NCBI GenBank assembly: GCA_024690665.1
Contig: JAILOU010000015.1
Coordinates: 1-64,000, forward strand
Direction: 5' to 3'
DNA: 64,000 nt
From: Eubacterium sp.
Lineage (GTDB): Bacteria > Bacillota > Clostridia > Lachnospirales > Lachnospiraceae
Shown: positions 1,495 to 12,882 of the stretch, piece by piece
How the letters are laid out: every line of letters starts with the position of its first letter
Position numbering within the stretch: position 1 is the stretch's first letter
Made by a program: the position numbers and the translations under genes
Notes under the pieces: model-generated
Seen by the model: the letters and a program-made list of their open reading frames with translations, nothing else
Told to the model about the DNA's origin: nothing
Database searches by the model: none

Positions 1495-1633
1495 GTAATG
1501 GATTTCTGAAAATTAGGTAAAAAAAGATGCAAGATTCCGTCACCACTCATTGCAAAACTTGCATTTTCTGAAAAAACTAGTATAATAGTACTGTTAGTAA
1601 ATATATTTGATACTAAGAAACGGAGGTAAGACG

Positions 1634-2218
1634 ATGTCGGATATTATGAATGCGGCAATGACGAATACATCTCCGATTCCTGCAACGAATACTACGACAC
1701 CAACTAGCGCTCCTAAGACATCGGAGGGACATGAGCAGGTTACTGCACCCGAAGAAGCTAAGAAAAGAGAGGATGAACTTGAAAACGTAGTATCGGTTTC
1801 TGAGGATGGAGATACGGTTCAGGTAAGTCCGGAAGGAAATGAAAAATTAGATGTGAAGGTAGTACGCGCAGAAACTGAGACAGATGATGAGCCGGTTAAT
1901 AATGAGGAGTCTGGAGTGCAAGATTTCCATATTGTTTCTTACGCCGGAATGTCAAATCAGCAGCTAGAACAGCTCTATCAGCAGGGAAAGATATCAAGAC
2001 ATGATTATGAAACTCAGATGGAAGTAAGAGAAGAGCGCGTAGAAAGTCAGCAGAGTGAGAACAGTCAGGAAACGGAAGAGATGGCGGGCTATAGCGCGCT
2101 TTCTGAAGAAGCGGACAGAATGGGAGAGGCCATTAAGGAAGCATATGAAGAAACGGCCAATGATACCATTGATGCACAGATCAGAATGCAGGCAGTTGAA
2201 AATTATAATACGCAATAA
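1634..2218 (+). CDS. Hypothetical low-complexity protein (194 aa), paralogue of 1036-1434
   Basis: CGGAGGTAAGACG RBS before ATGTCGGATATTATG; same core motif; MQAVENYNTQ C-terminus. Confidence 0.75.
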   Translation: MSDIMNAAMTNTSPIPATNTTTPTSAPKTSEGHEQVTAPEEAKKREDELENVVSVSEDGDTVQVSPEGNEKLDVKVVRAETETDDEPVNNEESGVQDFHIVSYAGMSNQQLEQLYQQGKISRHDYETQMEVREERVESQQSENSQETEEMAGYSALSEEADRMGEAIKEAYEETANDTIDAQIRMQAVENYNTQ

Positions 2219-2296: not shown

Positions 2297-3121
2297 ATGA
2301 AACAAATCAACAGAATCAAAGCCGTCTATTTTAGTCCGGCAGGATCGACAAAAGCAGTCGCGACCTATGCGGCAGAAAAACTTGGAGAACTTCTTAAGGT
2401 GCCGGTAGAGATGATTTCGTATACGCTGCCAAAAGAGCGTGAAGGGGCGTATGCATTTGCAGAAGATGAACTTGTCATCTGGGCAACGCCGGTTTATGCC
2501 GGTCGCATTCCGAATAAGACACTGGACTATGTAAAGGGTGCGCTTCATGGTAATCACACGATGATGATTCCGATTGTGGTATATGGGAACCGCAATTATG
2601 ATAATGCACTCGCGGAGCTTGCAGCGATTATGACAGAGCAGGGTGGCATTGTGATCGGTGCGGCAGCGATGGTGGCCAGACATGTATTTTCTAAACAGGT
2701 GGCAGCCGGAAGACCGAATGAGGATGACTATAAAAAGCTGGGAACATTTTGTGAGCAGATGGCACAGCGCGTAACAGATGAAGAGAAAATTAATACGGAT
2801 GAGATTCCGGGGCAGGCGCATCCGGATGCATATTATGTGCCGAAGAAGGTGGACGGAGAAGCAGCAAAGTTTTTGAAAGTAAAACCGAGATTGCATGAGA
2901 ATCTGTGTGATTCCTGCAAGGCCTGCGAACAGGTCTGTCCGATGGGGAGTATTGACTGGGATGGAAAGCATCCTGAATTTGCCCGAATCTGCATCAAATG
3001 TCAGGCGTGCGTACTTGCCTGTCATAAGGATGCCATCTACTTTGATGATGGAGATTTTGGTTCGCATGTAAGAAAGGTAGAGATGATCTGCAAGGAGACG
3101 CGTGAAGCAGAATTTTTCTAA
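2297..3121 (+). CDS. EFR1-type ferrodoxin (flavodoxin-like domain plus 2x[4Fe-4S])
   Basis: FSPAGSTKAVATYAAEKL; CDSCKACEQVCP and CIKCQACVLACHKDA. Confidence 0.85.
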   Translation: MKQINRIKAVYFSPAGSTKAVATYAAEKLGELLKVPVEMISYTLPKEREGAYAFAEDELVIWATPVYAGRIPNKTLDYVKGALHGNHTMMIPIVVYGNRNYDNALAELAAIMTEQGGIVIGAAAMVARHVFSKQVAAGRPNEDDYKKLGTFCEQMAQRVTDEEKINTDEIPGQAHPDAYYVPKKVDGEAAKFLKVKPRLHENLCDSCKACEQVCPMGSIDWDGKHPEFARICIKCQACVLACHKDAIYFDDGDFGSHVRKVEMICKETREAEFF

Positions 3122-3125
3122 ATAA

Positions 3126-3165
3126 AAAATGACCGAAACCAAGTAGCGTGGTTTCGGTCATTTGC
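3126..3165. terminator. Bidirectional terminator between convergent genes
   Basis: ATGACCGAAACCA-agtagcg-TGGTTTCGGTCAT hairpin, A/T-rich on both sides. Confidence 0.85.
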
Positions 3166-3170
3166 AATTT

Positions 3171-3347
3171 CTAGTATTCTACTGCAGGCAGATGATAATC
3201 ACGAGCTGTGTCATCAATGCAATCCTTAACGGTTAAAGTGCTTCTGATTTCACGCATGCTGTTTTCAAAGTCCTGTACTTTCTTTTCGTCCTTAACAGCT
3301 GCTTCATAGCTCTTGAATCTTTCCATTCCGATTTCGTTCATTGTCAT
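3171..3347 (-). CDS. Small protein of unknown function, 58 aa (copy A), absent from supplied ORF track
   Basis: MTMNEIGMERFKSYEAAVKDEKKVQDFENSMREIRSTLTVKDCIDDTARDYHLPAVEY*; AGGAGG RBS 9 nt upstream; 29/58 identical to copy B with no gaps. Confidence 0.9.
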   Translation of the reverse strand: MTMNEIGMERFKSYEAAVKDEKKVQDFENSMREIRSTLTVKDCIDDTARDYHLPAVEY

Positions 3348-3466
3348 CTCGATTGTCCTCCTAAATCAAACTCTTCATATACACATCGAGGTTTATTCTA
3401 GTACCATTTTACAATTAAGTAAAACGCGAAATCATAAACGTATCCATAAGGAATACTTAACCATTG

Positions 3467-3510
3467 AAAAAAAAAGAAGCCACACACGGTGCGGGCCGCG
3501 GTGGCTTCAT
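3467..3510 (-). terminator. Rho-independent terminator on minus strand
   Basis: GAAGCCACCGCGGCCCGCACCGTGTGTGGCTTC followed by T9. Confidence 0.75.
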
Positions 3511-3529
3511 ACAATCTCATAGAGTGAGG

Positions 3530-3598
3530 AATAAGGTTTACATATAGTGGAATGAAATTATTTGTTTTTGATTGTTTTGTTTGTGGACAAACCTTATT
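3530..3598. repeat. Perfect 10-bp inverted repeat (AATAAGGTTT/AAACCTTATT) separated by 49 nt
   Basis: Direct reading of both arms, 3530-3539 and 3589-3598. Confidence 0.8.
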
Positions 3599-3783
3599 CA
3601 AGGGGATGAGATGTATATAATAATCTGGGAAATATAAGACATTTGCTACAGTCTGGGGGGGAGTATGGTAGAATGCAGCAAGTTTGTCTCATATGATTCA
3701 CACTCTTTTTGTGTTCCCATCAATAAGTAAATGCATGGAGATTGCATTTTATTGCAAAAAAATTATTTTTTTTTATTTTTTTT

Positions 3784-3832
3784 AAAAAAGAAGTACCGAG
3801 CCTCCTATATTAAGGAAGTTCGGTACTTTCTA
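3784..3832 (-). terminator. Terminator of sigma/anti-sigma operon
   Basis: Minus strand AAGTACCGAACTTCCTTAATATAGGAGGCTCGGTACTTCTTTTTT, overlapping the stop codon. Confidence 0.85.
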
Positions 3833-5315
3833 TATCGTCGTCCGGCTCCGATTCGACGGTGGAATCGGAGTCGGTTGTTGATTGCGTGGCTTGCTTTGGT
3901 GAAGTGTTTTCAGGTGCCTGCTCTAAGGTAAAAGTAGAACTTAAACGCTCGGCCTTTTCCTGGGTATCACTTTTGATTCCATAGAGCACAACCGTGTAAG
4001 TTGTATCGTCCTCTAATGAGTCAGCATTTAGAACAAGCCGGTGCTTTGTTTTTTTGACAATTGTGGTATCAACGGTATTGCCTTCGTCGTCCTTAACAAT
4101 CGCTTTATAATGCTTGCCATAAGTGGCAGAAGTAGAAAAGCGAATACTGATATTGCCATTGGCTCTTGCAATGGTGTTTGTAATGGCAAGGGTCGTAGTG
4201 CTTTCTTGATTTGAATTAGTAGTTGATTCGGAATTTTGTTCAGAATTTGTATTGTTGCCGGAATCAGAACTTGTATTCGAATCTTTATTCGCAGAAGATG
4301 TTGGATTATCAGATGACGCTGAATTCTTTGGAGGGTTGGCAATCGAATTGCTTTCCTCGTGATCGGATTCTAGGTTATCTGATTCCGTGGTATCATCTGC
4401 AACCTTATCTGCTTTATCAGAAGACTTGCTAGAGGTAGTATCTTCTGGTTTAGAGTCAGAATTGTCAGGATTGTCAGAATTACTTGTAGTGTCATCGCCT
4501 TCGGATGTTTCATCTGACGCTTCCTCACTTGGCGTGACATGCATAACGGTAATGGAATCATCCTGCGTTAAATCAATCTGTGCATCTGCCAGATAGGCGT
4601 ATATGTTTTTTACGCTTTCATCTTTAAGGCCGGTTACATCGACGCCGGTATTCTCGGTGACATGCTGCAAGAAATAGTATTTTCCAACGGAGACTTGTTC
4701 TTCCTTGGCGGCGGTGGTCAGGTCTTCATCTTCTTCAAAAGACTGGCTGACCCATGTCGCATCAAGGGAATTGGCCTTGGCATAGTCGGTGATGGTCTCA
4801 TTAATCGTTTCGTCAATCGAGGTATCGTCGTCAGATTCTTTTGGACAATTTGAAACGATCAGGTCTGCAGTAGAATCTTCAAAGTATCCGTCTGAGTTAA
4901 GCTGCGTTAAAACCATGTTGACGGAATCGGATAGCTGCGTATCTTTATATTGGTGAACATCAATATCTTCTAGCAGATCGGCACCGTCTTCATTCTCGGC
5001 TAAGATGTCATTTACCATTCCATCTTTGTCATAAGTGATGCTGATACTTGGATTGACATCAATATATATCGTGCCTATGCTGTCGTCTGCAGAGGCATTT
5101 AGACCAAACGCCACCGCACACACAGCCGCTGCAGCAGCCGGTGGAAGCGTATATCGAAAGATTCGATAGGAATGCTTCTTTGGTGTTTCTTCTATAATAT
5201 AGTCATCGCTAAGCGTTGCTTCGTCGGCATCAATACGAGCCATGATTTCATCGAAGCAATCCGGTGCGAGTTCTTCAAATGCTGTCATTAAGTTGTCTTC
5301 TATGTGCTTGCTCAT
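3810..5315 (-). CDS. RsgI-like membrane anti-sigma factor with long S/T/N/D-rich linker and Fn3-like C-terminal domain
   Basis: Single TM (LPPAAAAAVCAVAFGL) followed by TIYIDVNPSISITYDKDGMVNDILAENEDG; ATGA overlap with sigma gene. Confidence 0.8.
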   Translation of the reverse strand: MSKHIEDNLMTAFEELAPDCFDEIMARIDADEATLSDDYIIEETPKKHSYRIFRYTLPPAAAAAVCAVAFGLNASADDSIGTIYIDVNPSISITYDKDGMVNDILAENEDGADLLEDIDVHQYKDTQLSDSVNMVLTQLNSDGYFEDSTADLIVSNCPKESDDDTSIDETINETITDYAKANSLDATWVSQSFEEDEDLTTAAKEEQVSVGKYYFLQHVTENTGVDVTGLKDESVKNIYAYLADAQIDLTQDDSITVMHVTPSEEASDETSEGDDTTSNSDNPDNSDSKPEDTTSSKSSDKADKVADDTTESDNLESDHEESNSIANPPKNSASSDNPTSSANKDSNTSSDSGNNTNSEQNSESTTNSNQESTTTLAITNTIARANGNISIRFSTSATYGKHYKAIVKDDEGNTVDTTIVKKTKHRLVLNADSLEDDTTYTVVLYGIKSDTQEKAERLSSTFTLEQAPENTSPKQATQSTTDSDSTVESEPDDDIESTELP

Positions 5316-5863
5316 ACTGTGCCTCCCTTCTTCGTTTTTTGAACTGCTTCTTTTAATTTCTTTAGCGCCCGATTGTACTTGGATAATACCGTGCCGACCG
5401 GCATGTTAAGCTCGTCGGCAATCTCGCGATGCTTTAATCCCGTAATTAAATGCATAACGACGATGGTTCGTTCTTCCTCGCCTAGATGACGAAACAGCTG
5501 ATCAATCAAGATGCGATTGTCAGCATCTGAGATCTGGTTGACACTGATATCGTAGTCTTTAAGCTCATAAGCTCCGTCAACAAGATCTGTCTTTTCACTT
5601 CTGACTTTCATAAGAAATAGATTACGACTAATCTTAATAATCCAGGCCATCGGATTCCCGCGTTCCTTATATAAATGACTGGACTTATATATCTTTACAT
5701 AGGTATCTTGCAAGATATCTTTGGCATCCTCCTGACTTTTTGTCCAGGAAAGGATGACCGCAAACAGCGGTTTATAGGTTAGTCGATATAATTCTTCAAA
5801 AGCATTTTTGTCACCCTTGGCGATCTTATCAAATATACCGGGCGGAATACTTACTCGTTGCAT
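5312..5863 (-). CDS. ECF-type RNA polymerase sigma factor
   Basis: EELYRLTYKPLFAVILSWTKSQEDAKDILQDTYVKIYK (region 2) and GLKHREIADELNMPVGTVLSKYNRALKKL (region 4); GGAGGGAG RBS before the ATG at 5863. Confidence 0.9.
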   Translation of the reverse strand: MQRVSIPPGIFDKIAKGDKNAFEELYRLTYKPLFAVILSWTKSQEDAKDILQDTYVKIYKSSHLYKERGNPMAWIIKISRNLFLMKVRSEKTDLVDGAYELKDYDISVNQISDADNRILIDQLFRHLGEEERTIVVMHLITGLKHREIADELNMPVGTVLSKYNRALKKLKEAVQKTKKGGTV

Positions 5864-5992
5864 AAGTGTAATACTCCCTCCATAAAAGGTTAATGCATAA
5901 TATCTTAAAATTATTGCATCATATTGAAAATAATGCAAATAAAAATGACGAATGCTCCGCAGGAGAAGCATCCGCCATGAGAGGGGTACTAA

Positions 5993-6169
5993 TTAGTATT
6001 CTACAGCCGGAATGTGATAGATACGGTCCGGTTCTTTGTAGCATTTTGATACGGTTAAGCTGCTTTTGATTTCACGAAGGCTTTCTTCGAATTCCATTCT
6101 TTTGCGTTCCTGTGCAGCTGCATTTACATAGTTGTTAAATCTTTCCATTGCTAATTTTTTCATCATCAT
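5993..6169 (-). CDS. Small protein of unknown function, 58 aa (copy B), absent from supplied ORF track
   Basis: MMMKKLAMERFNNYVNAAAQERKRMEFEESLREIKSSLTVSKCYKEPDRIYHIPAVEY*; GGAGGC RBS; gapless homologue of copy A. Confidence 0.9.
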   Translation of the reverse strand: MMMKKLAMERFNNYVNAAAQERKRMEFEESLREIKSSLTVSKCYKEPDRIYHIPAVEY

Positions 6170-6306
6170 ATTAAGCCTCCTTTTTTGAATTAAGTATTTC
6201 TTCTTTGTTCACTATCATCATAAAGCAGAAATTAAGTTAAGTAAATCGAATGTTTCTTTACACATACTTAAGTAAAAGTGCGCATAAGGAGAAAACGGTA
6301 TTGAAA

Positions 6307-6469: not shown

Positions 6470-7948
6470 ATGATGAGGGTAAAAAATGTATGCGCAAAAC
6501 TATATAAAGGCGTAGCAATGATCGTGTTGTGCATGGTCTTATTATGTGCGTTTACTTTTGTTCCGGTGAGTGCGGCATCTACGCAGTCACAGGTGACTTC
6601 GGCTATTTCAAAATGCCGGTCTTATGTTCAAAATAAATATTCTACTCCGGATTACGGTTCGGAATTCTTGGTTATTGCGCAGGCTCGAAGTGGGCTTAGT
6701 CTGTCAAATTCTTATTTTTCAACTTATTACAATAATGTAGCCAACTATCTGGCTTATACGGACGGAGTGCTGTCAACCGGTGCGACCAGGTCTGAGTATT
6801 CTAGAACGATTCTTGCACTTACAAGCATTGGCGTTGATGCAACAGACGTGGCCGGCTATAACCTGTTTGATCATCTAAGTAGCTTATCTGAGATTACGAA
6901 GCAGGGAATGAACGGAGCGGTCTGGGCACTTCTTGCAATCAATTGTCATACCTCTTATCAGACAACGGATCGAGTTGCGCTGGCAGAGGAACTGATCACT
7001 TATCTTCTTGGTAAGGAAATCAGCGGCGGCGGCTGGGCATACTCAGGTTCTACGCCGGATGGTGATATGACGGCCATGACGATTCAGGCGCTTGCTCCTT
7101 ATTATGAAGAGGATGGGTATGAGGAAGTGACGCAGGCGATAGACAGGGGACTTGTAATCTTATCTGAAAGTCAGCAGGATAACGGCGGTTACATCAGCTG
7201 TGGAGCGGAAAATGCAGAAAGTGCCAGTCAGGTAATTACAGCGCTTAGTGCTCTTAGTATTGATGCAGATACGGACAGTCGTTTTATAAAAAATAACAAA
7301 AGCGTGGTGGATAACCTCTTGACGTATCAAAAAAGCAGTGGAGGGTTCTTGCATGTAAAGAGTAATTCACTGGTTAATCAGCTTGCAACCACGCAGGCGT
7401 ACTATGCGCTTGTTTCTTATAACAGAAATGTGAACAGTCAAAGCTTCTTATACGATATGTCCGAGATGACATTGGCAGCCGGGGCAGCCGGAGATGGCAA
7501 GACGCATACAGGAGAAGAAGAAGATTCTGACAGCGATGACGATGATGATAGTGATTCATCGGATAAAAAGAAGTCAAAGACCAAGAAGAAAAAAACTTCT
7601 GATTCGGACAGTGATAGTGAAAAATCATCTTCTGACAGCTCAAGTTCAAGCAGCAGTTCTTCAACAAGTAGTACATCAGTAAGCTCTAAGAAAAGCACGG
7701 ATTCTTCTAAAGAAGAGGAAGAAGATATAGACGACGAGGAAGAAGATGACTGGGGCTTTGAGCCACAAGAATATGTGGAAAGTGACAGCGAAGTAGTGGC
7801 AGTGGCAGATGCGAATGAAACAGATGCCAAGGAGACCTCGCAGACAAGTGAAATAAACCGGACGCCATGGGTGATTGGCGGATGCGTAGTGGCAGCAGCA
7901 GTCGTGGCATTTAGTCTGGTTTCGATATTAAAGGGGAAGAGGAAGTAA
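6470..7948 (+). CDS. Surface-anchored alpha/alpha-toroid (prenyltransferase/squalene-oxidase-repeat) protein, candidate corrinoid-binding alpha domain
   Basis: Signal peptide; repeats such as GGGWAYSGSTPDGDMTAMTIQAL, NGGYISCGAENAESASQVITAL, SGGFLHVKSNSLVNQLATTQAYYAL; S/D-rich linker; C-terminal TM and KGKRK. Confidence 0.8.
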   Translation: MMRVKNVCAKLYKGVAMIVLCMVLLCAFTFVPVSAASTQSQVTSAISKCRSYVQNKYSTPDYGSEFLVIAQARSGLSLSNSYFSTYYNNVANYLAYTDGVLSTGATRSEYSRTILALTSIGVDATDVAGYNLFDHLSSLSEITKQGMNGAVWALLAINCHTSYQTTDRVALAEELITYLLGKEISGGGWAYSGSTPDGDMTAMTIQALAPYYEEDGYEEVTQAIDRGLVILSESQQDNGGYISCGAENAESASQVITALSALSIDADTDSRFIKNNKSVVDNLLTYQKSSGGFLHVKSNSLVNQLATTQAYYALVSYNRNVNSQSFLYDMSEMTLAAGAAGDGKTHTGEEEDSDSDDDDDSDSSDKKKSKTKKKKTSDSDSDSEKSSSDSSSSSSSSSTSSTSVSSKKSTDSSKEEEEDIDDEEEDDWGFEPQEYVESDSEVVAVADANETDAKETSQTSEINRTPWVIGGCVVAAAVVAFSLVSILKGKRK

Positions 7949-7951
7949 ATC

Positions 7952-9118
7952 ATGTTAAGAGAAGTACAAAAGAATATGAAAAAGTATGTTGCGCTGTTTC
8001 TTGTAATGGCAGTTGCTATTATGGCGCTTGCCGGATGCGGTAAGGCATCCGATAGTGGCAGCAGCAGTGATGGCGGCGGAACACTTGAAGAATATACACA
8101 GATTCCGGAAGATGGCATTATTACAGAAGAACAGATGTCATCGATTGCCGGCAAGGATGGAACCTGGTACTTTACCGGAAGCACAGAAGATGGAATCGAA
8201 TATAACTGGGCCTATGATGGCACCATGGTTCAAAATCCGGCAGATCAGAATCTAAAATTAGAACTAACAGAAGATGGAACAGATGAGGTTAAAAAGGCAG
8301 CGAAGGATGCGCCGTATTGTCTGGCAGTCACAATTGCAGATATGTATCTTGCAGCAGCGCCGACGCTTACGATCACACTTCCATCTGTTTGGGAAGCAGA
8401 TCGCGTTGTCTATTGTATCTATGAAGATGAGCAGCTCTATGAACTTTCTGATTCGTCAATTGAGGTTGATGAGGATGCGAAGACAACAACTCTTACATTA
8501 ACCATTAATAAGGCCGGCGGAACATTTTATGTACTGGGAGGCGGCTCAGTAGCAAGCGCAGATGATGCTGAAGAAGAAGAAAGTGACAGTGATTCAAAGG
8601 ATAGTTCCTCTAAGGATGATAGCAGTTCATCGGATACGAGCAAGGATGACGCTTCGGACGAAAGCGGTGATAGTTCATCATCAAGCGACTCAGACAAGTC
8701 TGATTCTAAGACGTCATCTGAGGATGATAGCAACACTTGTACGATTACGATTCGTTGCGATACCATCCTTGAGAATATAGATAAATTGGATTCTTCTAAG
8801 AAAGAATTCGTCCCTTCAAGTGGCGTGATTTTAGCTAAAACCACAGTAGAGTTTGAAGACGGCGATACGGTATTTGATATCTTAAAAGCGGTCTGCAAAG
8901 AGAAGGGAATCCAGATGTCTTCACAATACACACCGGGTCACGGTAGTTATTATGTAGAGGGCATTAACCAGTTGTATGAATTTGATTGCGGTGAAAACTC
9001 CGGATGGATCTATTCGGTAAATGGATGGACGCCTAACTATGGAGCTTCGGAGTATTCCGTAGAGAATGGGGATTCAATTAAATGGGAATACACCTGCAAT
9101 CTTGGTTCAGATTTATAA
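7952..9118 (+). CDS. Lipoprotein with C-terminal DUF4430 (transcobalamin-like beta) domain
   Basis: Lipobox MALAGCG; DTVFDILKAVCKEKGIQMSSQYTPGHGSYYVEGINQLYEFDCGENSGWIYSVNGWTPNYGASEYSVENGDSIKWEYT. Confidence 0.8.
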   Translation: MLREVQKNMKKYVALFLVMAVAIMALAGCGKASDSGSSSDGGGTLEEYTQIPEDGIITEEQMSSIAGKDGTWYFTGSTEDGIEYNWAYDGTMVQNPADQNLKLELTEDGTDEVKKAAKDAPYCLAVTIADMYLAAAPTLTITLPSVWEADRVVYCIYEDEQLYELSDSSIEVDEDAKTTTLTLTINKAGGTFYVLGGGSVASADDAEEEESDSDSKDSSSKDDSSSSDTSKDDASDESGDSSSSSDSDKSDSKTSSEDDSNTCTITIRCDTILENIDKLDSSKKEFVPSSGVILAKTTVEFEDGDTVFDILKAVCKEKGIQMSSQYTPGHGSYYVEGINQLYEFDCGENSGWIYSVNGWTPNYGASEYSVENGDSIKWEYTCNLGSDL

Positions 9119-9148
9119 AAATTCACTAGTACAAGGAGGAGAACAATA

Positions 9149-10183
9149 ATGGTGAAAAACAAGTTAACAAAGTTAATGGCCGGAGTTCTTTCGGCAGCAG
9201 TTGTTTTATCAGGCTCTGCACTGATGGGAACTGCAACAACAGCAAAGGCTGCTAGTACAAAAACGGTAGATGTGACATTTTCTTTATATGATGCCGGATA
9301 TGTTATGGAACCAACGACCTTAACGGTATCTGCAGATCTTGATGATACTTATGCATCTCAGGTTGGTTGTACAGATGATACGGATACGCCAACCGTATTA
9401 GACGCTGTAATAGCAGCGCATATAAAACTTTACGGAGAAAAGTTTTATAATACAAACCCATTTACAGCACCGAGCGGATGGGTTTCAGCTGCGTTTGGAA
9501 AAACAACTTCTGCATTAGGATATTATGTAAATAGTGCATCTGTAGATGCAATGAATACAGTTGAACTTTCAGATAGTGATAAATTGGAGTTCTTCTTTTA
9601 TCAGGACACTAATTATAAGGATGTGTATACGACATTTGATAAAAGTACAGTAAGTACAACCGTAGGAGCTTCAACAACATTAAATATGAAGGCTGTTAGT
9701 GGATATGATAGTGACTACAATCTAGTTTTTGAAAATGCTTCTGGAGTAGCAGTGACAAGTAACGGAACAAAGGTTGGAACAACTGACTCATCAGGTAATG
9801 TTAAGCTTACATTCTCAAAAGCAGGTACATATGTAATATCTGTGGCATCAACGACGACATATAATAGTTGTCCAATCGTGGCACCATACTGCAAGGTTAC
9901 TGTTAAGAAGAACGCACAGACAATTGCAAAGAAATCTCCAAAGAAAGTTAAGAAGTATAAATACTCTAAGAAAAAGAAACGTACTTTCAAGATTAAAGTA
10001 AAGAACGCTAAGACAAAACTTGTATATAAGTCAAGCAGCAAGAAGATCAAAGTTAACAGCAAGGGTAAGGTAACCATTAAGAAGGGAACCAAGAAGGGAA
10101 CTTACAAGATTAAAGTTTATGCTAAGAAAACAACTAAGTATAAAAAGTCTAATGTGTTAACATTTAAGATTAAGATCAAATAA
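9149..10183 (+). CDS. Secreted DUF4430-like protein with Lys-rich C-terminal tail
   Basis: Signal peptide; TVLDAVIAAHIKLYG...GWVSAAFGKTTSALGYYVNSASVDAMNTVELSDSDKLEFFFYQD; tail KKSPKKVKKYKYSKKKKRTFKIKVK... Confidence 0.7.
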   Translation: MVKNKLTKLMAGVLSAAVVLSGSALMGTATTAKAASTKTVDVTFSLYDAGYVMEPTTLTVSADLDDTYASQVGCTDDTDTPTVLDAVIAAHIKLYGEKFYNTNPFTAPSGWVSAAFGKTTSALGYYVNSASVDAMNTVELSDSDKLEFFFYQDTNYKDVYTTFDKSTVSTTVGASTTLNMKAVSGYDSDYNLVFENASGVAVTSNGTKVGTTDSSGNVKLTFSKAGTYVISVASTTTYNSCPIVAPYCKVTVKKNAQTIAKKSPKKVKKYKYSKKKKRTFKIKVKNAKTKLVYKSSSKKIKVNSKGKVTIKKGTKKGTYKIKVYAKKTTKYKKSNVLTFKIKIK

Positions 10184-10199
10184 GAATTAGGGAATACGT

Positions 10200-11207
10200 A
10201 TGATGGATACATTTTCAAGATGTCATCCGATTATCAACATGTATTATTTTATAGTAGTACTGGGCTGCACGATGTTCGTGCAGCATCCGGTACTACTTAT
10301 TCTATCTTTTGCGGGAGCAACTTCTTACGCAATCTATCTAAAAGGTTCGAAAAGTGTAATCAAAAGGAATCTGATCTTCACATTACCGCTGCTGATTATT
10401 GTGGCGTGTCTGAATCCGTGTTTTAATCATTACGGAGTGACGCAGCTCATCTACATGGAAGAGAGCGGAAACTGGATTACACTCGAAGCAACCGTATATG
10501 GAGTTGTGCTTGGGGCAATATTATTTGTGGTAATCGAATGGTTTGGGTGTTTTAACAAAGTTATGACGACCGATAAGTTTGTATACTTATTCGGAAAGTT
10601 GTTACCGGCAATTTCGCTGTTGTTGTCGATGACACTTCGCTTTGTGCCGAGATTTTTACGGCAGTTAAAGCGAATCAGAAATGCACAAAAATGCGTAGGC
10701 ATGGATGTGACAAATGGCGGATTTATAAAAAGAGTGAAGCATGGGTTGGGAATCTTATCGATTCTGATTACCTGGGCATTGGAAAATGCGATTGACACCG
10801 CAGATTCCATGAAAAACAGAGGATATGGACTTCCGGGAAGAAGTGCCTTTTCTATCTATCGATTTGATCGAAGAGATCTTATGTTGACAGGTATCTTTAG
10901 CGGATTGTTCCTTGTGATTATATATGGATTGATGCATGGGGCGGCATTTGCCCAATACGACCCGCGCATTATATTGGCAGGATTTACGATTCAGGGATAT
11001 GCAGCAGATGTGACATGTTCTGAGGCAATGGCAAGAATAACATTTGTCGCATTCGCGGTATTTTGTTTTGTTCCGCTTCTAATGAATCTTGCGGAAGATG
11101 TAAGAATGAAAGCAAGTTTAGGTCAGATGGGTAAGAGAATAGATCTGACATATCGGGCAATCTATGAGGGAATTGATGAAGAATCAAGCAGTAAAACAGA
11201 TATATAA
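10200..11207 (+). CDS. ecfT: ECF transporter transmembrane component (EcfT)
   Basis: Multi-TM; LRFVPRFLRQLKRIRNAQKCVG and AIDTADSMKNRGYGLPGRSAFSIYRF. Confidence 0.85.
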   Translation: MMDTFSRCHPIINMYYFIVVLGCTMFVQHPVLLILSFAGATSYAIYLKGSKSVIKRNLIFTLPLLIIVACLNPCFNHYGVTQLIYMEESGNWITLEATVYGVVLGAILFVVIEWFGCFNKVMTTDKFVYLFGKLLPAISLLLSMTLRFVPRFLRQLKRIRNAQKCVGMDVTNGGFIKRVKHGLGILSILITWALENAIDTADSMKNRGYGLPGRSAFSIYRFDRRDLMLTGIFSGLFLVIIYGLMHGAAFAQYDPRIILAGFTIQGYAADVTCSEAMARITFVAFAVFCFVPLLMNLAEDVRMKASLGQMGKRIDLTYRAIYEGIDEESSSKTDI

Positions 11208-12882
11208 AATTGAAGATTTTAGTTTCTGCTATCCGGAGTGCGAGACGCCGGCGATAGCGGAGCTTTCGATGGATATAAAAGAAGGCGCATTTCATGTGCT
11301 GTGTGGTCCGAGTGGTTGCGGTAAGAGTACATTGCTTCGGCATTTAAAGCCGACGCTTAAGCCGCATGGAACTACGAAGGGAACCATCCGGTATGCAGGT
11401 GCGCCGATCGGGGAACTTGAGCACAGAAGAGAAAGCAGCGAGATTGGTTATGTCCTTCAAAATCCGGACAACCAGATTGTGACAGATAAGGTCTGGCATG
11501 AATTGGCATTTGGACTCGAAAGTCTGGGATATGATACGGAGACGATTCGTCTTCGAGTAGCAGAGATGGCAAGTTACTTTGGAATCCAATCTTGGTTTCG
11601 AAAGGATGTGGCAGACTTGTCCGGAGGACAAAAGCAGCTTCTTAATCTGGCATCGATTATGGCGATGCATCCGAAGGTGCTGATACTGGATGAGCCGACA
11701 GCGCAGCTTGACCCGATTGCGGCCAGTGATTTTTTAGAGACGGTGCGTAAGATTAATCGCGACATTGGAACAACGGTCATTATTACTGAGCACAGATTGC
11801 AGGATATTATTCCATATGCGGATACAGTCTTTGTGATGGAAGGCGGCAAGCTGGTAAGTCAGGGAGAGCCAAGCAAAGTGGGGACGCAGCTAAAACAGCA
11901 GGGTAGTGCCAACTTTTTGGCAATGCCGATTCCGATGCAGATTTATAGTGAAGTGGACAATGATTTAACCTGTCCGCTCACGGTTAACCAGGGAAGAGCC
12001 TGGATGGATGAACTTCTTGCAGGGCGCGAGGTTGTGCAACCGGACATGCAAGGAGAAGAGACAGACAAGAAGGCAGAACCTGTGATTGAAGTGAAGGATG
12101 TCTGGTTTCGGTATGAAAAGAACAGTCCGGATGTGGTAAAGGATCTTAATCTTACGGTCAATCGCGGAGAGTTCTATGCGATTCTCGGCGGTAATGGAAC
12201 CGGCAAAAGTACTTCTTTGTCCCTAATCAGTCATCTTCGTACGCCGTATCGCGGTAAGATTCTAATTGAAGGAAGAGACATAAGAAAGTATTCGGATATG
12301 GAATTATACAGGGGGCTGATGGGTGTACTGCCGCAGTCTCCGCAGGCAATGTTCCTGAAAAAGACGGTGAAGGAAGACCTCTATGCCATGATTGGAGGAC
12401 GCCGTGAAAATGCGATAGAATATGACCTTCCGATGGAGAAAAGTAAAGCGATTGAAGGCATTGCGTCGTTAACAAGACTGACGGAGTTATATGATCGCCA
12501 TCCGTATGATTTAAGTGGTGGTGAGCAGCAGAGATTGGCGCTTGCCAAGGTGCTGCTTCTTCGGCCGAAGATACTGCTACTTGATGAGCCGACGAAGGGA
12601 TTGGATGCAGAATACAAAAAGTTTTTGGGAGAAATCTTAGTCAAGCTGGTTTCGAAAGGAATTACTATCCTGATGGTTTCTCATGATATGGAATTTGTTG
12701 CAGAATATGCAGACCGTGTTGGTCTGTTCTTTGAAGGAAATCTCGTAACGGAAAGAAAGACGGCGCAGTTTTTTGCCGGAAATAATTTCTATACTACCGC
12801 GGCAAACAGAATGGCGCGTCATGTCTTTCCAGAGGCTGTTACCGGAAAGGATGTGATTGCATGCTTGAAGAAAAACAGTTAG
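11164..12882 (+). CDS. ECF transporter fused double ATPase (EcfA-A')
   Basis: Two ABC domains: GPSGCGKST/LSGGQKQLLNLA/LILDEPTAQLDP and GGNGTGKST/LSGGEQQRLALA/LLLDEPTKGLD. Confidence 0.95.
   Translation: MRELMKNQAVKQIYKIEDFSFCYPECETPAIAELSMDIKEGAFHVLCGPSGCGKSTLLRHLKPTLKPHGTTKGTIRYAGAPIGELEHRRESSEIGYVLQNPDNQIVTDKVWHELAFGLESLGYDTETIRLRVAEMASYFGIQSWFRKDVADLSGGQKQLLNLASIMAMHPKVLILDEPTAQLDPIAASDFLETVRKINRDIGTTVIITEHRLQDIIPYADTVFVMEGGKLVSQGEPSKVGTQLKQQGSANFLAMPIPMQIYSEVDNDLTCPLTVNQGRAWMDELLAGREVVQPDMQGEETDKKAEPVIEVKDVWFRYEKNSPDVVKDLNLTVNRGEFYAILGGNGTGKSTSLSLISHLRTPYRGKILIEGRDIRKYSDMELYRGLMGVLPQSPQAMFLKKTVKEDLYAMIGGRRENAIEYDLPMEKSKAIEGIASLTRLTELYDRHPYDLSGGEQQRLALAKVLLLRPKILLLDEPTKGLDAEYKKFLGEILVKLVSKGITILMVSHDMEFVAEYADRVGLFFEGNLVTERKTAQFFAGNNFYTTAANRMARHVFPEAVTGKDVIACLKKNS

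Follow-up and report, generated by a model that had tools for sequence, protein, structure and literature searches.

Two small open reading frames flank a sigma/anti-sigma operon

The window analysed here is the 64,000-nucleotide stretch at positions 1 to 64,000 of Eubacterium sp. contig JAILOU010000015.1. Its minus strand carries two open reading frames of 58 amino acids each, which we call gene 1 and gene 2, lying on either side of an operon that encodes an ECF sigma factor and an RsgI-like anti-sigma factor (Table 1), a module of the kind known from Clostridia as ECF sigma/RsgI-like (RsgI_M, PF23750) transmembrane anti-sigma modules. The two products align without gaps at 29 of 58 identical positions (50%) and have in common the motifs MERFxxY, REIxSxLTVxxC and YHxPAVEY, and each frame is preceded by a Shine-Dalgarno (SD) sequence, AGGAGG at a spacing of 9 nt for gene 1 and GGAGG at 6 nt for gene 2. 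A BLAST search of gene 1 against its own genome (a gut-type Clostridia assembly of 2.58 Mb in 57 contigs, 87% complete) matched itself and gene 2 only, the latter at E = 6e-14, far past chance. The two are thus the only copies in the genome and lie less than 3 kb apart on the same strand; their identical length is only further evidence that they are paralogues. An earlier note on this DNA had described the positions and lengths of both frames, their ungapped alignment, strong ribosome-binding sites, shared motifs and arrangement around the sigma/anti-sigma pair, all of which we confirmed. It had also seen no leader peptide or transmembrane segment and, by eye, neither a signal peptide nor such a segment is apparent in either protein, nor is a secreted-peptide or bacteriocin leader, the N-terminus being charged and free of hydrophobic stretches and the helix predicted by AF2 being polar.

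Table 1. Features on the minus strand around the two 58-aa genes (window coordinates).
Feature	Position	Strand	Description
Gene 1 intrinsic terminator	3127..3163	-	15-bp stem, 8 nt past stop
Gene 1, 58-aa ORF	3171..3347	-	protein MTMNEIGMERFKSYEAAVKDEKKVQDFENSMREIRSTLTVKDCIDDTARDYHLPAVEY
Gene 1 predicted promoter and 5' leader	3348..3423	-	-35 TTTACTTAA, 17-nt spacer, -10 TAGAAT (3423-3395), SD AGGAGG
Structured noncoding RNA	3466..3760	-	between anti-sigma gene and gene 1; conserved; L013 2395-2710 in G103
RsgI-like anti-sigma factor	3810..5315	-	RsgI_M domain
ECF sigma factor	5312..5863	-	183 aa from ATG with SD (likely start 5863); longest ORF starts 5971
Gene 2 intrinsic terminator	5945..5978	-	14-bp stem, 15 nt past stop; separates gene 2 from sigma operon
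Gene 2, 58-aa ORF	5993..6169	-	protein MMMKKLAMERFNNYVNAAAQERKRMEFEESLREIKSSLTVSKCYKEPDRIYHIPAVEY
Gene 2 predicted promoter and leader	6170..6276	-	TTTACTTAA at 6276-6268 and 6245-6237; -10 TATGAT (ends 6217); SD GGAGG

The noncoding RNA folds with a z score of -6.8 and ends in a terminator-like 3' hairpin; it is present in only 2 of 394 family genomes, this one and that of the sister species G103, where it is well conserved. It has no Rfam match, and a 6S identity was rejected, since the RF00013 model does not match here and 6S sits elsewhere in three members of the genus.

Several other features of the window were recorded. A divergent operon (6470-12882, plus strand) encodes a prenyltransferase/squalene-cyclase-like surface protein, a DUF4430 lipoprotein, a further secreted protein, a CbiQ-type transporter and a double ABC ATPase, and resembles a system for intrinsic-factor-like capture of cobalamin with ECF uptake. 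Tandem paralogous proteins (985-1434 and 1607-2218, plus strand; MSDIMN...NTTT...GDTVQVSxEGNE...YNT) have no Pfam match and an apparent orthologue in G103, located after the noncoding RNA (L013 about 2790-3390, minus strand). At the start of the window, an ORF resembling a reverse transcriptase/maturase lies beside the 3' end of a group II intron (RF00029; 434-504, plus strand).

Divergence between the two genes looks coding

At the DNA level gene 1 and gene 2 are 65% identical, with 61 nucleotide and 29 amino acid differences, and the differences are distributed over the three codon positions as 17/16/29, that is, with an excess at the third position. When the same substitutions were placed at random in 20,000 trials, they gave a mean of 37.4 +/- 2.4 amino acid changes against the 29 observed, with values as low as 29 arising in 0.05% of placements (the observed number being lower than 99.95% of them), and 89% of placements created a stop. 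The NG86 estimates for the pair are dN of about 0.40 and dS of about 0.97. Other reading frames of the two genes contain 1-8 stops, and comparison of the flanks revealed no likeness outside the coding region except in short AT-rich stretches, so that the two genes are alike only within the reading frame. As far as two paralogues forming one pair can tell, the substitution pattern looks like protein-level selection, and we take it as good evidence, from that single pair, that these are two protein-coding paralogues; both are probably real genes. The proposal of two small paralogous and putatively translated genes is in this way upheld by substitution pattern, SD sequences, promoters and terminators, the coding-like pattern that the earlier note had named beforehand as a test being present in the comparison of gene 1 with gene 2 itself.

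Each gene appears to be its own transcription unit

Upstream of both genes we identified the same sigma-A-type promoter layout, TTTACTTAA-N14-TANNAT, with TAGAAT as the -10 element of gene 1 and TATGAT as that of gene 2. Across the 2.58-Mb genome this pattern has exactly two sites, which are the promoters of gene 1 and gene 2; because it was built from those same two sites, its uniqueness indicates that there is no wider regulon and is not proof of shared control. On its own, TTTACTTAA occurs four times in the window, where 0.57 copies are expected, three of them in the leaders of the two genes and the fourth within a methyltransferase-like gene. The two copies in the gene 2 leader are 31 bp apart, and both are kept at the same spacing in G103. 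Together with the intrinsic terminators, both of them strong, these signals suggest that each 58-aa gene is a monocistronic transcription unit, and the common promoter layout suggests that the two may be co-regulated.

The 58-aa genes and the sigma factor have neither operon nor promoter in common: the former have promoters and terminators of their own, and TTTACTTAA is missing from the sigma operon leader, where a different repeat, ATGCAAT...TGCATTAAC, is shared with the leader of the noncoding RNA. Since promoters and terminators are separate, the 58-aa genes bracket the sigma operon in position only and are predicted to be units separate from it. As to the repeat, the sigma leader (5919-5889, minus strand) and the noncoding RNA leader (3747-3727, minus strand) both read ATGCAAT-N14/N4-ATGCATTWAC, with spacings that differ by 10 bp; in G103 the noncoding RNA copy is present and the sigma leader holds a near copy.

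No relatives were found outside the locus

Homologues of the 58-aa genes were sought at increasing taxonomic range. A profile search of 397 family genomes gave no relative and one weak unrelated match, and a scan of the family for the C-terminal motif gave none, its one extra match, in G282, ending in TGG and not in a stop. No relative turned up in a search of the genus, in a peptide-pattern search of 85,462 species, or among viral contigs, phages and plasmids, and the C-terminal motif returned 8 matches from the 85,462 species, all with stop-riddled frames upstream and hence attributed to chance. Among 383 genomes of the order there was no convincing relative, the matches being weak and nearly all within long ORFs, with the proviso that a two-sequence profile could miss very short or highly divergent relatives. 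Neither protein matched Pfam, NCBIfam or PADLOC, PHROGs gave no convincing match, and a PDB profile search returned nothing significant. The earlier note had called the proteins conserved and had named a failure to find homologues outside this locus as the refuting outcome; with none in family, genus, order, the 85k species or the viral, phage and plasmid collections, the claim of conservation fails this test.

The sister species retains the gene 2 promoter

Contig C5 of G103 carries the sigma factor (76% identical) and the anti-sigma factor (66%) at its start, and contig C10 likewise begins with the divergent neighbour (window 6470). The anti-sigma gene is still followed by the noncoding RNA, but gene 1 is missing and a different gene comes next. 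On C10 the gene 2 promoter and SD are both preserved (AAAGGAGGCTTA). Where the start codon should follow directly on the SD, the end of an element that bears a transposase-like coding remnant is found instead; the boundary falls exactly between SD and start, and the element recurs at the end of contig C15. The site expected for gene 2 in G103 lies in a gap of the assembly, flanked by a transposable element and a repeat, which puts the coding part beyond comparison. Since promoter and SD survive there, the gene 2 transcription unit predates the species split, and gene 1 is either a local duplicate or a gene lost in the sister species. G103 also carries a dispersed, hairpin-rich repeat of 90 bp on both sides of its sigma operon (L013 1-92 and 2300-2395) and, at L013 about 3490-4230, a tandem array built on CTTGGGG...GCTCCCCAAG.

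A dedicated link to the sigma module is unlikely

The position of the genes invites the reading that the 58-aa proteins serve specifically to regulate the ECF sigma/RsgI-like module, acting for example by competing for the sigma factor or by binding the cytosolic segment of the anti-sigma factor. The genome's only two copies do lie within 3 kb of each other, on one strand and on either side of the sigma operon, and the genes for sigma factor, anti-sigma factor and 58-aa proteins are all narrowly distributed, the sigma/anti-sigma module itself having clear orthologues in only 2 of 397 family genomes. We nevertheless consider this reading unlikely, given the separate promoters and terminators, a sigma operon leader that does without TTTACTTAA and shares its repeat with the noncoding RNA, and the persistence in G103 of sigma operon, anti-sigma gene and noncoding RNA in the absence of gene 1. 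Five remote RsgI-like (ECF/RsgI) loci were also searched, and no such 58-aa ORF was found alongside any of them; these modules differ in that respect from the one described here. The earlier note had pictured conserved signalling proteins linked to this sigma module. That picture is not supported, the promoters being separate and gene 1 missing beside the orthologous G103 module, and the co-occurrence with ECF/RsgI operons that it had suggested checking was seen neither in the 397 family genomes nor beside the five remote loci.

Predicted fold and a borderline resemblance to flotillins

AF2 predicts a single helix over residues 2-37, with pLDDT of about 80-95 (gene 2), followed by an extended or unstructured C-terminal tail of low confidence (pLDDT 55-66). 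The tail is strongly conserved between gene 1 and gene 2 (LTVxxC, RxYHxPAVEY), and its conservation in a part that is not predicted to fold suggests a docking motif. A fold search with the AF2 model found no match in the PDB.

A second alternative is that the proteins are SPFH-derived or SPFH-mimicking micropeptides, that is, a stand-alone helical flotillin segment of the type LRxIxxxLTVEEIY that could bind or modulate a flotillin-like scaffold. The best two profile matches outside the genome are flotillins from other families of the order, at per-genome E values of 4e-5 and 8e-5, which become only about 0.02-0.03 once corrected for the number of genomes searched; five of the seven matches outside the own genome in the order-level search are flotillin-like, and the two of these that we checked both carry Band_7. 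Against independently chosen plasmid flotillins, hhalign gave a gapless alignment of 44 columns (AMERF...SLREIKSSLTVSKCY against AAEQF...HLRSILGSMTVEEIY; E-F, E, R, I and L/M-T-V positions in common) with a score of 27.9, compared with 10.0 +/- 1.8 and at most 17.3 for column-shuffled controls, but the profile similarity to the helical segment is borderline after correction. Under a 12-sequence flotillin HMM spanning the flanks both genes outrank 10,000 shuffles, but an HMM restricted to the core ranks one shuffle above gene 2. The PDB search lists flotillin-2 (1win), aligned in the same register, at E = 1.4, yet Pfam Band_7 (PF01145) gives no match at E up to 10, and pairwise identity with three flotillins is only 7-13/45. 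Unlike flotillins, the 58-aa proteins span about a quarter of the SPFH domain, with neither its beta-strands (AF2 giving helix plus tail) nor a membrane anchor, and have YHxPAVEY where the third SPFH helix would be; no flotillin was seen within the window. At one remote RsgI locus (L044) a flotillin-like SPFH gene lies two genes away; its product is stomatin/QmcA-like, and its presence there was judged coincidental.

Because three quarters of the SPFH domain are missing, we treat this resemblance of borderline significance as a lead and not as family membership. An SPFH origin or mimicry strikes us as improbable, and we place slightly less belief in the bolder form of the idea, in which each protein would be a flotillin helix cut short and fitted with a new tail at the C-terminus, the pair acting on a flotillin-like scaffold as the first natural mini-SPFH modulators.

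Discussion

The account that we favour, and hold to be likely, is that gene 1 and gene 2 are real paralogues encoding small proteins, an orphan pair restricted to this lineage, monocistronic and with products of the small regulatory or adaptor type. Each would be expressed from its own sigma-A-type promoter and presumably translated into a small cytosolic protein that, on the model, has an amphipathic helix (about residues 2-37) and a conserved extended tail (LTVxxC...RxYHxPAVEY). Tail and helix would most likely dock on a protein partner, the protein serving as a small adaptor or modulator, and the sigma/anti-sigma pair is a candidate partner by position only. It is highly improbable that the ORFs are instead untranslated and alike because of a conserved element (RNA or DNA) or a recent duplication of noncoding DNA. 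Although no collection searched held homologues to confirm coding, the similarity ends at the ORF, third codon positions are in excess, amino acid changes are fewer than random, and an intact frame with matching start and stop and an SD is found in both, where other frames have 1-8 stops.

As an orphan pair, the genes resemble other orphan bacterial small-protein genes in being short, SD-preceded, restricted in their homologues to a narrow clade, and missed by family libraries. They differ from a single orphan ORF in that one genome holds two diverged paralogues whose divergence looks coding and whose promoters have the same layout, which makes them better supported. On present evidence they reveal no new mechanism of sigma control. 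If translated, they would offer a clear-cut example of a small-protein family that is very young, with two diverged copies evolving under protein-level selection, a promoter layout in common and a history that can be dated, as the promoter is older than the divergence from a sister species in which one copy is missing. They also illustrate how such genes escape gene finders and family libraries.
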